The notes below the pieces were generated by a model. That model saw only the letters and a list, made by a program, of their open reading frames with translations. It had not been told where the DNA came from and did no database searches. Below are positions 37,312 through 42,300 of a stretch of DNA of 46,689 bases, piece after piece (position 1 is the first letter of the stretch; the number at the start of each line of letters is the position of its first letter). The translations under genes were made by a program, and so were the position numbers. The stretch comes from Bacteroidaceae bacterium (GTDB lineage: Bacteria; Bacteroidota; Bacteroidia; Bacteroidales; Bacteroidaceae), in contig JAFUYM010000046.1 of the NCBI GenBank assembly GCA_017470525.1, positions 1 to 46,689 on the forward strand, in the 5' to 3' direction.

Positions 37312-37430
37312 AACAATTGGACGATAAAGTCATTTTTGTGGACGTTTATGCTATTTTTTAGATGTTCGTTCGACGATGCACTACAAAAACTCCATTGTCA
37401 GCCTTTCGTATAGGCAAACAACGCTCACCC

Positions 37431-37692
37431 GTATCTTCCTCCTTCTCTCGCTCGTCATCTCCTCAACCTCATGCCCGTCGTCTCCCCACCCTCTCACCCG
37501 TTGTCTCCTCGCCCTCTCACCCGTCATCTCCCTGCCCTGTCACCCGTCATCTCCCTGTCCTGTCACTCGTCATCTCCTTGCTCCCTCACCCGTCATCTCC
37601 TTGCTCCCTCACCCGTCATCTCCTTGCTCCCTCATCCGTCATCTCCTTGCTCTCTCACTCGTCATCTCCTTGCTCTCTCACTCGTCATCTCC
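37431..37692. repeat. Tandem repeat, 11 copies of a 23-bp pyrimidine-rich unit
   Basis: Units start with GTCATCTCC and end with CTCACCC, each 23 bases: 11 in a row (37431-37683) plus a 9-base partial. The first ones are diverged and the later ones nearly identical, as if the array grows at its right end. A degenerate unit may precede it at 37408. The plus strand is nearly all C and T. With a 23-base period all three frames stay open, so long frames here are artefacts. There are no spacers, so it is not a CRISPR array. It lies between the GH127 promoter and the korA promoter. Confidence 0.9.
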
Positions 37693-37755
37693 GAGGAAAA
37701 AACAGGTGGTAGCATTCCTTATTGACGGGTCTGTGGTCAAATACTTATGCTGCAA

Positions 37756-37787
37756 TTTGGTCAGAATGAAAAGAAAGTGTAACTTTG
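37756..37787 (+). promoter_or_regulatory. Strong promoter ahead of the GxxExxY cassette and korAB
   Basis: TTTG (37756-37759), 20 bases, then TAACTTTG (37780-37787): the best match to the Bacteroidetes -33/-7 consensus in the window. A CTTTGC-AGTC-GCAAAG dyad (37783-37798) overlaps its downstream edge. It lies 53 bases before the cassette's left repeat, so it probably drove korAB before the cassette arrived. Confidence 0.7.
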
Positions 37788-37840
37788 CAGTCGCAAAGTG
37801 TCAGCAATTTGCGGTTTTCGCTAATAAAATGTGACTCCAT

Positions 37841-38423
37841 CGGCACATTCTGTGCCTTGGACAAACGATAATTACCGATAATTGACGATAATTTGTTCCG
37901 ATAATTTTTATATAAAAAGGATGATGACAAAAGAAGAGTATATGCGGATGTACGAACTTGTGGGTGCTGCGATGGAGGTGTACAACGAGTTAGGGTTCGG
38001 CATGGAAGAGCCACTCTACCAAGAGGCGATGGCAATAGAGTTGGAAGAGCGAGGCATCCCATACATTCGCGAGAAAGTGCTTTATACCTACTATAAGGGC
38101 AAACAAATGAAGAAGACTTATGTGGCAGATTTTTATAGTCAAGAGATGATTGTAGAATTTAAGTCCGTCAGCAAGGTTACGCCCGAGCACCGTGCTCAAC
38201 TTTTCAACTACCTGCGCATCACAAAATTGCGATATGGAATATTGGTCAACTATGGTGAAGACCACTTTCATGCAGAACGGTATGTTTATGATGATGAAGA
38301 GAAGCACTATGTGTTGCTGTCAAAAGATAATCTTCACCTCTATGTGCTAAACTAAAAAATTATCGGAACAAATTATCGTCAATTATCGGTAATTATCGTT
38401 TGTCCAAGACACAGAATGTGTCG
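37841..38423. mobile_element. One-gene cassette with 69-bp terminal inverted repeats carrying a GxxExxY gene
   Basis: 37841-37909 and 38355-38423 are inverted copies, 67 of 69 positions identical. The two differences are a matched pair in a 5-bp hairpin near the outer end: GGCAC-ATTCT-GTGCC on the left, GACAC-ATTCT-GTGTC (as reverse complement) on the right, so pairing is kept. Each arm holds four CGATAATT words (left: 37866, 37876, 37886 and 37899), spaced 10, 10 and 13 bases, like binding iterons. The only gene starts 12 bases after the left arm, and its stop codon touches the right arm. Weaker similarity (CTCC) continues outside. No clear target-site duplication was found. Confidence 0.8.
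37921..38355 (+). CDS. GxxExxY-family protein (PD-(D/E)XK nuclease-like fold)
   Basis: 144 residues from ATG 37921 (a second ATG follows directly); an in-frame TTG at 37882 would lie inside the inverted repeat and is rejected. The family motif GxxExxY is seen in GFGMEEPLYQEAMAIEL. The PD-(D/E)XK-type core is TYVADFYSQEMIVEFKSV, with Asp before and ExK (EFK) at the second strand, as in the PDDEXK_3 group. These small proteins have no established function; they occur in several copies in many genomes. It is flanked directly by inverted repeats and shares about a third of its residues with the gene at 40405-40806. A role in moving the cassette is an inference. Confidence 0.85.
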   Translation: MMTKEEYMRMYELVGAAMEVYNELGFGMEEPLYQEAMAIELEERGIPYIREKVLYTYYKGKQMKKTYVADFYSQEMIVEFKSVSKVTPEHRAQLFNYLRITKLRYGILVNYGEDHFHAERYVYDDEEKHYVLLSKDNLHLYVLN

Positions 38424-38476
38424 TAGGAGCAAAACAAAATATTAAAGAATAAAAATGATTGTTAAAAAATAAATTT

Positions 38477-40327
38477 ATGGCAGAAAAATTGGAAGTGAAG
38501 GAACTCGCCGAAGTGGCGGTTCGTTTTTCAGGTGATTCTGGCGACGGCATGCAACTCGCCGGAAACATCTTCTCCACGGTGTCAGCCACCGTGGGTAACA
38601 GTATCAGTACTTTCCCAGACTATCCAGCCGACATCCGTGCCCCGCAAGGTTCGTTGACGGGCGTGAGCGGTTTTCAGGTACACATCGGTGCGGAGATGGT
38701 CTATACTCCAGGCGACAAGTGCGACGTGCTGGTGGCAATGAATGCCGCAGCACTCAAAACACAATATAAGTACGCGAAGCCAGGAGCCTCCATCATCATC
38801 GACACCGACTCGTTTCAGGCTGCCGACCTGAAGAAGGCGGCATTTGCCACCGACGACTATCTGGGCGAGATGGGCATCGACCCCGACCGTGTGATTGCTT
38901 GCCCCATCACCACAATGGTGAAGGACTGCTTGGCAGACAGCGGCATGGACGTGAAAGCCATGCTGAAATGCCGCAACATGTTCGCCCTCGGACTCGTCTG
39001 CTGGCTCTTCGACCGCGACCTCAACATCGCGTTCAACTTCCTCAAGGAGAAATTTGCCAAGAAGCCCGGTGTGGCAGAAGCCAACATCAAGGTGATTCAG
39101 GCGGGTTACGACTACGGACACAACACCCACAGCAGTGTGGCTAACGTCTATCGCATCGAGACGAAGAACAAGGTGCCCGGACGCTATATGGACATCACGG
39201 GTAACAAAGCCACAGCCTACGGTTTCATTGCCGCTGCCGAGAAGGCGGGCTTGAAACTCTACCTCGGTTCTTACCCCATCACCCCTGCCACCGACGTGCT
39301 ACACGAACTCTCCAAGCACAAGTCTCTCGGTGTCACCACCGTGCAGTGCGAAGACGAAATCGCAGGTTGCGCCTCGGCTGTCGGTGCTTCGTTTGCAGGT
39401 GCTTTGGGTGTCACTTCCACTTCGGGTCCTGGCATCTGCTTGAAGAGCGAAGCCATGAACTTGGCAGTCATCATGGAGTTACCACTCGTGGTGCTCGACG
39501 TGCAGCGTGGCGGTCCTGCCACAGGTCTTCCTACGAAGTCAGAGCAGACCGACCTCTTGCAAGCCCTCTTCGGCAGAAACGGTGAAAGCCCGATGCCTGT
39601 GATTGCAGCCACATCGCCCACCGACTGCTTCGATGCAGCCTACGCTGCTGCCAAGATGGCGTTGGAGCACATGACTCCTGTCATCCTCATGACCGATGCT
39701 TACGTAGCCAACGGTTCGGCTGCCTTCAAACTGCCTAACCTCGCTGACTATCCAGCCATCAACCCACCTTACGTGCCAGAAGAACTGAAAGGCTCATGGG
39801 CACCTTATCTCCGCAATCCTGAAACAGGCGTACGCTACTGGGCAGTGCCTGGTCGTGAAGGCTTCCAGCACATCCTTGGTGGCTTGGAGAAGGACAACAA
39901 GACGGGTGCCATCTCCACCGACCCTGAGAACCACGACCTCATGACACGTCTCCGCAAGGAGAAAATCGACAAAATCCAAGTGCCCGACCTCGAAGTGCTG
40001 GGCGACAAGGACGATGCCGACCTCCTCATCGTAGGCTTCGGTGGCACTTACGGACACCTCCACGCCGCCATGGACGAACTCCGTGCCCAAGGCAAGAAGG
40101 TGGCACTGGCTCACTTCAAGTACATCAACCCACTGCCCAAGAACACAGCCGAAGTGCTGGGCAAGTACAAGAAAGTCGTCGTTGCCGAACAAAACATGGG
40201 TCAACTCGCTGCTTGGCTCCGCATGAAAGTGGACAACTTCACCCCCGAACAGTTCAATCAGGTGAAGGGACAACCCTTCGTGGTCAGCGAACTCGTAGCA
40301 GCATTTAATGAGATAATCAACAAGTAG
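38477..40327 (+). CDS. korA: 2-oxoacid:ferredoxin oxidoreductase, gamma-alpha fused subunit
   Basis: Start at ATG 38477; an in-frame TTG at 38459 is less likely. The N-terminal ~190 residues are the gamma domain (VRFSGDSGDGMQLAGNIF ... DYPADIRAPQGSLTGVSGFQVHIG). The alpha domain follows, with pyrimidine-binding region GSYPITPATDVLHELSKH, QCEDEIAGCASAVGASFAGA and TSTSGPGICLKSEAMNLAVI. The C-terminal domain has VVAEQNMGQLAAWLR. With the beta subunit it makes a thiamine-diphosphate enzyme that oxidatively decarboxylates 2-oxoglutarate (or another 2-oxoacid) to the acyl-CoA with ferredoxin reduction. In anaerobic Bacteroidales it often runs reductively for 2-oxoglutarate synthesis. The partner korB lies 591 bases downstream, separated by a GxxExxY cassette. 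Confidence 0.93.
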   Translation: MAEKLEVKELAEVAVRFSGDSGDGMQLAGNIFSTVSATVGNSISTFPDYPADIRAPQGSLTGVSGFQVHIGAEMVYTPGDKCDVLVAMNAAALKTQYKYAKPGASIIIDTDSFQAADLKKAAFATDDYLGEMGIDPDRVIACPITTMVKDCLADSGMDVKAMLKCRNMFALGLVCWLFDRDLNIAFNFLKEKFAKKPGVAEANIKVIQAGYDYGHNTHSSVANVYRIETKNKVPGRYMDITGNKATAYGFIAAAEKAGLKLYLGSYPITPATDVLHELSKHKSLGVTTVQCEDEIAGCASAVGASFAGALGVTSTSGPGICLKSEAMNLAVIMELPLVVLDVQRGGPATGLPTKSEQTDLLQALFGRNGESPMPVIAATSPTDCFDAAYAAAKMALEHMTPVILMTDAYVANGSAAFKLPNLADYPAINPPYVPEELKGSWAPYLRNPETGVRYWAVPGREGFQHILGGLEKDNKTGAISTDPENHDLMTRLRKEKIDKIQVPDLEVLGDKDDADLLIVGFGGTYGHLHAAMDELRAQGKKVALAHFKYINPLPKNTAEVLGKYKKVVVAEQNMGQLAAWLRMKVDNFTPEQFNQVKGQPFVVSELVAAFNEIINK

Positions 40328-40337
40328 TTTTGATAGT

Positions 40338-40885
40338 AACAACGAATTTATCGAATGATACGAATCTGAGTGTAAATGCCGCAAGCGGCGACGAATAGAA
40401 TCGAATGGCAATGGAAACTCAACGAAGAGACTTGATATATCCTCAAGAAACCTACGAGATTATCGGGGCTGCAATGGCTGTGCATAATGCCCTTGGCAGG
40501 GGATTTACAGAAAAAGTGTATCAAGAGGCTTTGGCGATTGAGTTTCAAGAGAAAGGCATACCTTTCCAGCGCGAAGTAGAGATTCATGCTGTTTATAGAG
40601 GTAGTAACACTCTTTCAGCAACATTCGTTCCAGATTTTATCTGTTATGATAAAATCATCGTAGAACTGAAAGCGGTGAAAGAACTTGAAGATGCATATCG
40701 TGCTCAAGCACTTAACTACGCAAAGGTCGCTGGAATGAAATTAGCCCTCCTCATCAACTTCGGTGAATCCCGTTTAGTCGCAGAAAGGCTTCCCATTCTT
40801 ACCTAACATCTTACATTCGTTTTTATTCGTTGTCGTCCACGACATTCCAAAAAACCGATTCGTAAAATTAGAAAAATTCGTTGTT
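40338..40885. mobile_element. Second GxxExxY cassette with ~75-bp imperfect inverted repeats, between korA and korB
   Basis: The outer ends AACAACGAATTT (40338-40349) and AAATTCGTTGTT (40874-40885) are perfect inverted copies. Further inward the arms stay similar (TACGAATC, then a hairpin, then ACGAATA-AA-CGAATG). The hairpin is kept but its bases differ: GCCGC-AA-GCGGC on the left (40378-40389) and GTCGT-GG-ACGAC in the right arm (40830-40841, as reverse complement). The only gene begins where the left arm ends and stops ~5 bases before the right arm begins. It separates two genes that normally adjoin. No clear target-site duplication. Confidence 0.7.
40405..40806 (+). CDS. GxxExxY-family protein (PD-(D/E)XK nuclease-like fold), second copy
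   Basis: 133 residues (a second ATG at 40411 is possible). Motif GxxExxY in LGRGFTEKVYQEALAIEF; PD-(D/E)XK-like core in ATFVPDFICYDKIIVELKAV (Asp, then ELK as ExK), then YRAQALNYAKVAGMKLALLINFGE. Related to the protein encoded at 37921-38355, but its flanking repeats are of a different sequence family. It lies in the same direction as korA and korB, so the cassette may be cotranscribed with them. Confidence 0.87.
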   Translation: MAMETQRRDLIYPQETYEIIGAAMAVHNALGRGFTEKVYQEALAIEFQEKGIPFQREVEIHAVYRGSNTLSATFVPDFICYDKIIVELKAVKELEDAYRAQALNYAKVAGMKLALLINFGESRLVAERLPILT

Positions 40886-40918
40886 CAAAAAATATCAAAG
40901 TCAAAATAATTTAAGTAT

Positions 40919-41923
40919 ATGGAATTCAAAGTACAAGATTATAAAAAAGGTCAGCCACGTTGGTGTCCTGGCTGTGGCGACCACTTCTTCCTTGCCTCCC
41001 TCCACAAAGCAATGGCAGAGATTGGTGTGGAACCTTGGAATACAGCCGTGATTAGCGGTATTGGTTGTTCATCGCGTCTGCCGCACTATATGGCAACCTA
41101 TGGCATGAACACCATTCATGGTCGTGCTGCTGCCATCGCTACTGGTTGCAAGGTGGCAAACCCCGACCTGACCGTGTGGCAGGTGAGTGGCGACGGTGAT
41201 GGTCTTGCCATCGGCGGTAACCACTTCATCCATGCGAACCGTCGCAACATCAACCTCAACATGATACTGCTCAACAACCGCATCTACGGTTTGACCAAGG
41301 GTCAGTACTCACCCACCTCTCCCCGTGGCTTCGTCTCGAAGTCCAGTCCTTACGGAACGGTGGAAGACCCGTTCCGTCCTGCCGAACTCTGCTTCGGCGC
41401 TCGTGGACACTTCTTTGCACGTGCCGTCGCTACCGATGCACCCGGCACCGTGGAAATCCTCAAGGCTGCCTACAACCACAAAGGTGCTGCCGTGTGCGAG
41501 ATTCTGCAGAACTGCGTCATCTTCAACAACGGCACCCACGATGCTGTCTATAGCAAGGAAGGACGTGCCAAGAACGCCATCTACGTGGAGCATGGCAAGC
41601 CCCTCATCTTCGGCGAGAACCGTGAGTATGGTCTCATGCAAGAAGGCTTCGGCTTGAAGGTGGTGAAGATTGGCGAGAACGGCATCACAGAGAAGGACAT
41701 CCTCATCCACGACGCACACTGCGAGGACAACACCCTCCAACTCAAACTCGCCCTCATGGGCAATGGCGACGGCTTCCCCGTGGCACTCGGTGTCATCCGC
41801 GATGTAGATGCTCCCACCTACGACGACTGCGTAACCGCCCAAATCGAGGAGGTGAAAGCACAGAAGAAGTATCACAACTTTGCCGAACTGCTCGAAACTA
41901 ACGACATTTGGGAAGTAAAGTGA
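40919..41923 (+). CDS. korB: 2-oxoacid:ferredoxin oxidoreductase, beta (ThDP-binding) subunit
   Basis: 334 residues. The N-terminal RWCPGCGDHFFLASL carries the conserved Cys pair. The thiamine-diphosphate-binding motif is GDGDGLAIGGNHFIHANRRNI ... NLNMILLNNRIYGLTKGQ (GDG followed after ~28 residues by NN). IGCSSRLPHYMATYGMNTIHGRA also fits KorB-type beta subunits. It contains no 4Fe-4S ferredoxin domain. Works with KorA. Only 33 bases separate its ATG from the upstream cassette's end, so its own ribosome-binding region is intact but it has no visible promoter of its own. It depends on transcription through the cassette or starting within it. Confidence 0.94.
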   Translation: MEFKVQDYKKGQPRWCPGCGDHFFLASLHKAMAEIGVEPWNTAVISGIGCSSRLPHYMATYGMNTIHGRAAAIATGCKVANPDLTVWQVSGDGDGLAIGGNHFIHANRRNINLNMILLNNRIYGLTKGQYSPTSPRGFVSKSSPYGTVEDPFRPAELCFGARGHFFARAVATDAPGTVEILKAAYNHKGAAVCEILQNCVIFNNGTHDAVYSKEGRAKNAIYVEHGKPLIFGENREYGLMQEGFGLKVVKIGENGITEKDILIHDAHCEDNTLQLKLALMGNGDGFPVALGVIRDVDAPTYDDCVTAQIEEVKAQKKYHNFAELLETNDIWEVK

Positions 41924-42008
41924 TACAGTGATTTGAGTTAAAACTACAGATTTGGTTACGCCGAACTAAAGGTTTGCTACACAGATTTTAACTTCTGCAG
42001 GTTTTTTT

Positions 42009-42242
42009 AGAACAACGAATTTTACGAATGAGACTAATTTTTTCTTGCCATACCGCAAGCGGTGACGAATAAAAACGAACCTTTAGATCGACGTAGCCAA
42101 TATCGTCGCGAGGCGAAGTGGCTATACCCTGCTGGTTTGTACGCCGTATGGCGAAGCCGTCCAAGGCTCCAATTCGTTTTTATTCGTCGTCGCCTCGCGA
42201 CATGAAAAAAAGATTCGTCCCATTCGCAAAATTCGTTGTTCT
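42009..42242. mobile_element. MITE-like, gene-less relative of the second GxxExxY cassette
   Basis: Outer arms 42009-42034 and 42217-42242 are inverted copies, 24 of 26 identical, starting AGAACAACGAATTTT. Inner arms share GACGAATAAAAACGAA exactly (42064-42079 and, inverted, 42173-42188). Beside each is a small hairpin with different bases: ACCGC-AA-GCGGT (42052-42063) on the left and GTCGC-GAG-GCGAC (reverse complement) on the right. This matches the arm layout of the cassette at 40338-40885 but with no gene inside. The centre (42080-42172) can fold (TAGCCA ... TGGCTA). It lies 85 bases after korB. The rest of the 41924-42300 gap shows nothing clear. Confidence 0.75.
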
Positions 42243-42300
42243 AAGAACTTGCGAACTCTGTAGTTCCTGTATTATTCCGTGGTTCCTTTTTCTCCGTTTC

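Follow-up and report, generated by a model that had tools for sequence, protein, structure and literature searches.

A GxxExxY gene between inverted word-and-hairpin arms: a candidate minimal mobile element of the Bacteroidaceae with gene-less derivatives

The 46,689 bp stretch of Bacteroidaceae bacterium DNA analysed here (the window; contig JAFUYM010000046.1 of assembly GCA_017470525.1) carries two GxxExxY family genes, each enclosed by inverted arms made of short repeated words and a hairpin. The first of these units, unit 1, is probably a mobile element of a minimal, autonomous kind: its PD-(D/E)XK protein would act on its own arms, and it would have MITE-like derivatives. The mobility of such units and elements is well supported; from the association of gene and arms we infer that the protein binds and cuts them and that it, rather than another enzyme, is the mover. 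This is also where the original prediction of a minimal mobile element divides: mobility has stood, as the unit is not fixed, its words occur elsewhere and empty sites exist, and the protein's part in it keeps the rank of a proposal.

Two units and a gene-less miniature in the window

Unit 1 lies upstream of korA (this name, like korB, prs, pflA, metK, guaA, thyA, folA, iorA and iorB below, is presumptive and was assigned by reading neighbouring sequences). Its left arm (37835-37909, forward strand) and right arm (38355-38429, reverse strand) are 75 nt each, 95% complementary and 445 nt apart, and their inverted-repeat score is 130 versus a maximum of 23 in 30 shuffles. The gene is thus confirmed as packed between near-perfect inverted repeats; the originally predicted length of 69 nt describes their core (37841-37909 and 38355-38423), but the true arms reach a few nt beyond it. 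In the left arm an outer hairpin (37842-37856) is followed by four CGATAATT words starting at 37866, 37876, 37886 and 37899, and the right arm has the mirrored words, starting at 38358, 38371, 38381 and 38391, and then its own outer hairpin (38408-38422). Four words per arm at about one helical turn had been predicted, and there are four, but their spacings are 10, 10 and 13 bp, the last of which is too long. The hairpins are 15 nt, with the form GGCACA-TTC-TGTGCC on the left and GACACA-TTC-TGTGTC on the right, and the two differences between the arms do compensate each other as had been claimed, the G/A and C/T being pairing partners. The gene itself (37921-38355, forward strand) encodes a 144 amino acid protein with the PD-(D/E)XK residues D70, E79 and K81 and the motif residues E30 and Y33; its ATG is 11 nt past the left arm and its stop codon shares one base with the right arm, so the repeats indeed stop near the gene's codons. 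A 23 bp minisatellite of 11.7 copies occupies 37424-37692, immediately upstream of unit 1. Units 1 and 2 are also found on contig C54 of the source genome (G000) with the same arms and 100% identical proteins, which is probably assembly redundancy.

Unit 2 (40338-40885) lies between korA and korB, and its arms differ from those of unit 1. The left arm (40338-40404, forward strand) contains CGAATNN words, the hairpin GCCGCAAGCGGC and inner CGAAT words, the GxxExxY gene (40405-40806, forward strand) encodes 133 amino acids, and the right arm (40811-40885, reverse strand) has a start position set by reading of the sequence. Downstream of korB, the stretch from 42011 to 42240, to which no strand is assigned, has inverted repeats at 42004-42046 and 42205-42247 and at 42059-42079 and 42173-42193; judged from its sequence it is a miniature version of unit 2, with the arm layout kept and the gene missing. 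An inverted module whose sequence is close to GGCTACGCCGAGCTAAAGGTT is present at 41952-41974 and 42078-42100, and the same module occurs within scattered elements of other types (L065 and L350) and upstream of the element of L056.

Arms around GxxExxY genes in the genus and in other phyla

GxxExxY matches are present in 35 of 45 genomes of the genus, all of them drafts, and 93 loci were analysed, the C54 duplicates (L002 and L005), the short L031 and the unfetched matches (mostly weak, short or truncated) having been set aside. Flanks swapped between loci and shuffles served as controls. The median flank inverted-repeat score of the 93 loci is 45, versus 18 for swapped flanks; measured against these swapped flanks, 74 loci lie above the 95th percentile and 56 above the 99th, and 19 fall short of the 95th. 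The 27 other genes of the window also have a median of 18, and the highest among them is korB at 46, whose flanks contain arms from both unit 2 and the miniature; the next is 24. Beyond the genus we collected 80 relatives from named genomes reaching outside the Bacteroidota, with a query of five sequences that is biased to the korA-korB lineage because three of them come from that junction. Among the 74 with enough flank, 59 exceed the 99th percentile of shuffles, and against swapped flanks 40 lie above the 95th percentile and 24 above the 99th. Arms can be seen, for example, in Oligosphaera, two Desulfobacterota, Prosthecobacter, Brocadia and one Cloacimonadota genome; within this wide set none are visible in Wenzhouxiangella, Nitrococcus, two further planctomycetes and one of two spirochaetes. 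From such comparisons, a similar arm layout appears to surround the GxxExxY family in several bacterial phyla.

In many units the arms are close to the gene ends. The best word spacing is 9-11 bp in 43 of 54 genus arms (most commonly 10 bp, 26 arms) and 9-10 bp in 30 of 33 arms of the wide set (most commonly 9 bp, 25 arms). The words themselves vary with the protein lineage: close relatives of unit 1 have either CGATAATT (G000, G041, G012 and G010) or CAATAATT (G019, G030, G008 and G001), and its more distant relatives have very different words, which are found in both arms of the units displayed. By a longest-open-frame rule applied to 90 loci, the gene downstream of the unit is co-directional with it in all 58 callable cases, and 53 of 61 upstream genes also share its direction, indicating that units live inside operons, probably because only copies there remain expressed.

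The GxxExxY protein

In profile searches the unit 1 protein matches TIGR04256 (GxxExxY; E 1.5e-33) and PF13366 (PDDEXK_3; E 4.9e-32) and no transposase family. The two window proteins score 115.6 and 134 bits against TIGR04256, which has a curated cut-off of 35 bits. Eighteen aligned proteins show no variation at residues E30, Y33, D70, E79 and K81, and the conservation of these residues is 1.0 in the genus set (67 of the 93 proteins taken in); the PF13366 match and the invariance of D70, E79 and K81 bear out the earlier view of these proteins as PD-(D/E)XK-like. The nearest PDB folds to the AF2 model of the protein (pLDDT 95.8) are SSO0001 (E 6e-4), which we take to be a Cas4 protein, followed by lambda exonuclease and LHK-Exo; the TM-scores are about 0.4-0.54. 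PADLOC gives weak matches (Cas4 and PDC-M36A) for two of four proteins, the unit 1 protein matching Cas4 at E 2e-4, and nothing for the unit 2 and L006 proteins; an identity as a defence system was set aside on these results. Cas4 holds an iron-sulphur cluster with cysteines, and the unit 1 translation contains none, so it is not a Cas4 of that kind. The top PDB sequence match, T7 endonuclease I, is non-significant (E 0.17); this junction-resolving enzyme is only a lead, which would fit cutting at an extruded hairpin. In-frame stops interrupt 8 of the 93 genus genes (L025, L026, L027, L103, L104, L105, L109 and L119), which would be in keeping with the decay of mobile genes.

Four-helix-bundle genes in similar arms

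A second family shows a parallel arrangement. Of the 45 genus genomes, 35 carry genes of TIGR02436, which we take to be the four-helix-bundle family of the 23S rRNA intervening sequences, and these genes lie between inverted word arrays (L187-L216); 30 loci were fetched, and 22 of the 26 that are long enough exceed the 95th percentile. Their words have a best period of 7 or 14 in 11 of 16 cases, mostly a spacing of 7 versus the 9-11 bp of GxxExxY arms. This second class of element may have the 23S rRNA intervening sequences as one of its landing sites, and these may also be one place where a wider class of one-gene elements lands.

Gene-less copies, and whether the gene is a passenger

Arms that never occur elsewhere would have spoken against a mobile unit, but their words do occur elsewhere. 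The CGATAATT arrays give 61 matches in the source genome, 12 of them within unit 1, which is present as two identical copies on contigs C45 and C54, and a manual count places arrays at 21 further sites; the reversed-pattern control gives 0. The word of another GxxExxY unit of that genome (L007) has 55 matches there with at most two mismatches, two of them its own arms (reversed control 0), and with at most one mismatch it has 43 matches in the source genome versus 0-4 in each of 44 other genus genomes. All nine sampled CGATAATT elements lie outside ORFs of at least 100 codons, as do 10 of the 11 from G012 and G007; for the L007-word type this is so of 19 of 30, the other 11 overlapping one, and some of the overlapping ORFs start within the element. 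Several elements of G012 and G007 (L347, L350, L351, L354, L359, L360 and L366) have the hairpin on the outside as in the unit. Those CGATAATT elements of the source genome in which both halves were read are inside-out relative to unit 1, as if each were the junction of a circle, a resemblance that we cannot explain with certainty. Three copies of the L007-word type (L317-L319, on contig C3 of G000) are exactly 1578 bp apart, apparently through tandem amplification of neighbouring genes that carry the element. We note also that a further GxxExxY unit of the source genome (L327, contig C42) follows a likely iorB, and that the likely iorA and iorB genes have an element of the L327 type between them, both gene names being presumptive.

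At least two CGATAATT arrays outside units are found in all four genomes that have such a unit versus 3 of 41 without one (p 2e-4, with the cut-off of two arrays chosen after the counts were seen), and CAATAATT arrays are numerous where a genome has no close unit (28 matches in G036 and 12 in G004); the link between unit and copy is good for CGATAATT and poor for CAATAATT. This abundance of CAATAATT is what would be seen if the arms and miniatures are mobile and the GxxExxY protein is a passenger or a regulator (for instance a nuclease by which the repeats are kept in check or repaired), with another enzyme or host recombination moving them. Such an account, which we regard as unlikely but worth keeping in mind, also suits the protein's lack of a transposase match, the enclosure of the unrelated four-helix-bundle genes in similar arms, and the finding of no clear target-site duplication in the presence/absence alignments, in which the junctions are diverged. 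Against it stand the closeness of arms to gene ends, the tracking of protein lineage by the word and the invariant active-site residues. Arms flanking unrelated genes had moreover been named in advance as evidence against a mobile unit, and among the 61 CGATAATT places of the source genome (positions read by eye in a draft genome) no gene other than GxxExxY is enclosed by convergent arrays.

Hairpins and pairing in RNA

The hairpin was examined in 19 of 42 arms, picked by the position of a flanking CTCC/TTCC motif, the other 23 being in other registers. The share of hairpin cells that pair is 90.4% in these 19 distinct arms versus 71.9% in shuffles, 19 cells are changed on both sides versus 7.6, and the covariation score is 0.442 versus 0.140; neither of the last two values is reached in 500 shuffles, which treat the arms, although related, as if without kinship. 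Changes on both sides affect four of the six pairs, which 83 of the 500 shuffles match, and the innermost pair fails in 10 of the 19 arms. The hairpin seems to be selected within each arm, and this covariation supports the selection on a small folded form that was originally proposed.

The same proposal had offered, as its alternative, pairing of the two arms in RNA. An RNA element resembling the 23S rRNA intervening sequences, in which an ORF sits inside a terminal inverted-repeat stem that RNase III cuts (according to the accessible text of PMC4990558), would have its arms pair in the operon transcript, sealing the gene off or allowing its excision by RNase III, and its repeats would be selected for RNA folding. 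The covarying hairpins and the uniform direction of units and their downstream genes would suit it, but the arms lack the expected G-U bias: in 192 arm-to-arm transitions from 81 units (nine near-duplicate loci and units scoring under 40 removed), 88 keep pairing through G-U and 104 break it (p 0.28), which leaves pairing of the arms in RNA without support. The hairpins themselves contain one G-U pair in 114 cells, the word spacing is near the DNA helical repeat, and the region 37700-41000 has no Rfam match up to E 1, which also removes a known RNA family from consideration. We therefore give the RNA reading little credence.

Occupied and empty sites

Comparison of the regions upstream of korA, as originally suggested, finds the unit there in five genomes (G000, G041, G012, G010 and G030) of the 39 in the genus that have a match to korA, so it is not fixed. 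Of the 30 korA-korB junctions fetched, 19 are empty, their stop and start codons being parsed as 16-21 bp apart. Nine contain a GxxExxY unit, that of G036 contains a four-helix-bundle gene, and that of G038 is unreadable. Similar units also occur in flanks without detectable similarity to each other (L129/L135, 89.5% at the protein level, L007/L148, L141/L156 and L001/L011); at unrelated sites the proteins are 80-90% and the unit DNA 72-80% identical. Among the scattered elements, the one at prs is absent from G029, G026, G030 and G032 and the one at pflA from G006; the metK and guaA sites align with too much divergence in relatives to be called. The search of relatives' sites covered 5 of 15 extracted miniatures (L347, L350, L351, L352 and L354; 1776 of 5400 bases), the elements of G007 and two of G012 lying outside it. 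In the close species G012 and G010 it gives near-exact presence/absence of one insertion (L350), and at two more G012 sites G010 has other words; the L347 site has no usable match in the relatives. The thyA-folA junction is empty in G010 and G043 and holds three different element types in G012, G030 and G029.

The korA-korB GxxExxY lineage, on the other hand, looks like a long-term resident. Motifs of korA and/or korB accompany 23 of the 80 wide loci (L217-L227, L229-L237, L243, L245 and L262), a set whose query is biased to that lineage, so part of the pattern may come from descent or homologous recombination; the idea that a polyphyletic series of insertions produced the korA-korB occupants is weakened, since related wide loci are also at the kor locus. 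To extend this to all units, as old non-mobile residents whose arms are operators for their own regulation and which spread by descent and homologous recombination of neighbours only, would accord with those 23 loci and with the flank identity of roughly 70-98% in same-site pairs, but it is very improbable in view of the units without flank similarity, the scattered gene-less copies and the presence/absence at matching sites, the empty sites already weakening it.

Proposed working and significance

If unit 1 is a mobile element served by its own protein, several copies of the protein would bind the words of both arms, which as iterons about 10 bp apart would present themselves on one face of the helix, and the bound copies would bring the two arms together. 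The protein might then cut at or near the hairpins once these are extruded, and copying or movement would follow, either of the unit or of a gene-less version bearing its arms. New copies would persist mostly between operon genes and in the orientation of the gene downstream, where the element's gene can be expressed by host readthrough.

This working assigns a role that can be tested to a widespread family of proteins whose function is unknown, connects that family with the repeats scattered in operon junctions, and points to a possible new type of enzyme for moving DNA. More tentatively, GxxExxY proteins may be a new class of single-protein mobilisers that work through iteron-hairpin arms with no classical transposase and are the source of a large undescribed share of the operon-junction word repeats in Bacteroidota and other phyla, and the four-helix-bundle proteins of the 23S intervening-sequence type may be a second, parallel class.

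Comparison with known systems

Searches of open papers, which covered PF13366, MITE-like elements in this group and arm words other than the window's own, and of which one was narrow, found no description of such units; two open papers mention GxxExxY in their accessible text, only incidentally. In fold the protein is most like Cas4 and lambda exonuclease, through its best structural matches and the weak Cas4 profile match, and it is unlike Cas4 in lacking the cysteines for the iron-sulphur cluster.

In RAYT/REPIN systems a GTAG or CGTC tag lies beside the palindrome. In Pseudomonas and others, as far as the available text of PMC3116915 goes, a single RAYT gene lies beside palindromic repeats and there are many gene-less extragenic inverted doublets, joint evolution of repeat and gene is proposed, and RAYTs are related to IS200/IS605 transposases. 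A gene flanked by its repeat and dispersed inverted doublets are found here too; in place of a Y1 (HUH) transposase there is a protein of PD-(D/E)XK nuclease fold, and the repeat consists of words about 10 bp apart and a hairpin.

The units and their copies likewise resemble insertion sequences and MITEs such as BrickBuilt of Porphyromonas gingivalis (accessible text of PMC4596501) in their terminal inverted repeats, short gene-less derivatives in several copies, intergenic sites and presence/absence at matching sites; the same text makes no link to the present elements. Unlike insertion sequences they match no recognised transposase family, and no clear target-site duplication could be made out at their diverged junctions. 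With the 23S rRNA intervening sequences that carry an S23p ORF (as the accessible text of PMC4990558 describes them) they share a small ORF of unknown role between inverted repeats and a scattered occurrence, but unit 1 is upstream of korA and the units occupy operon junctions of mRNA genes, not rRNA, and the protein is GxxExxY, not the four-helix-bundle S23p. In working, the nearest systems are the RAYT/REPIN and insertion sequence/MITE pairs, but the enzyme that defines each of these is absent here; if the nuclease is the mobiliser, the GxxExxY units would stand beside them as a new class.
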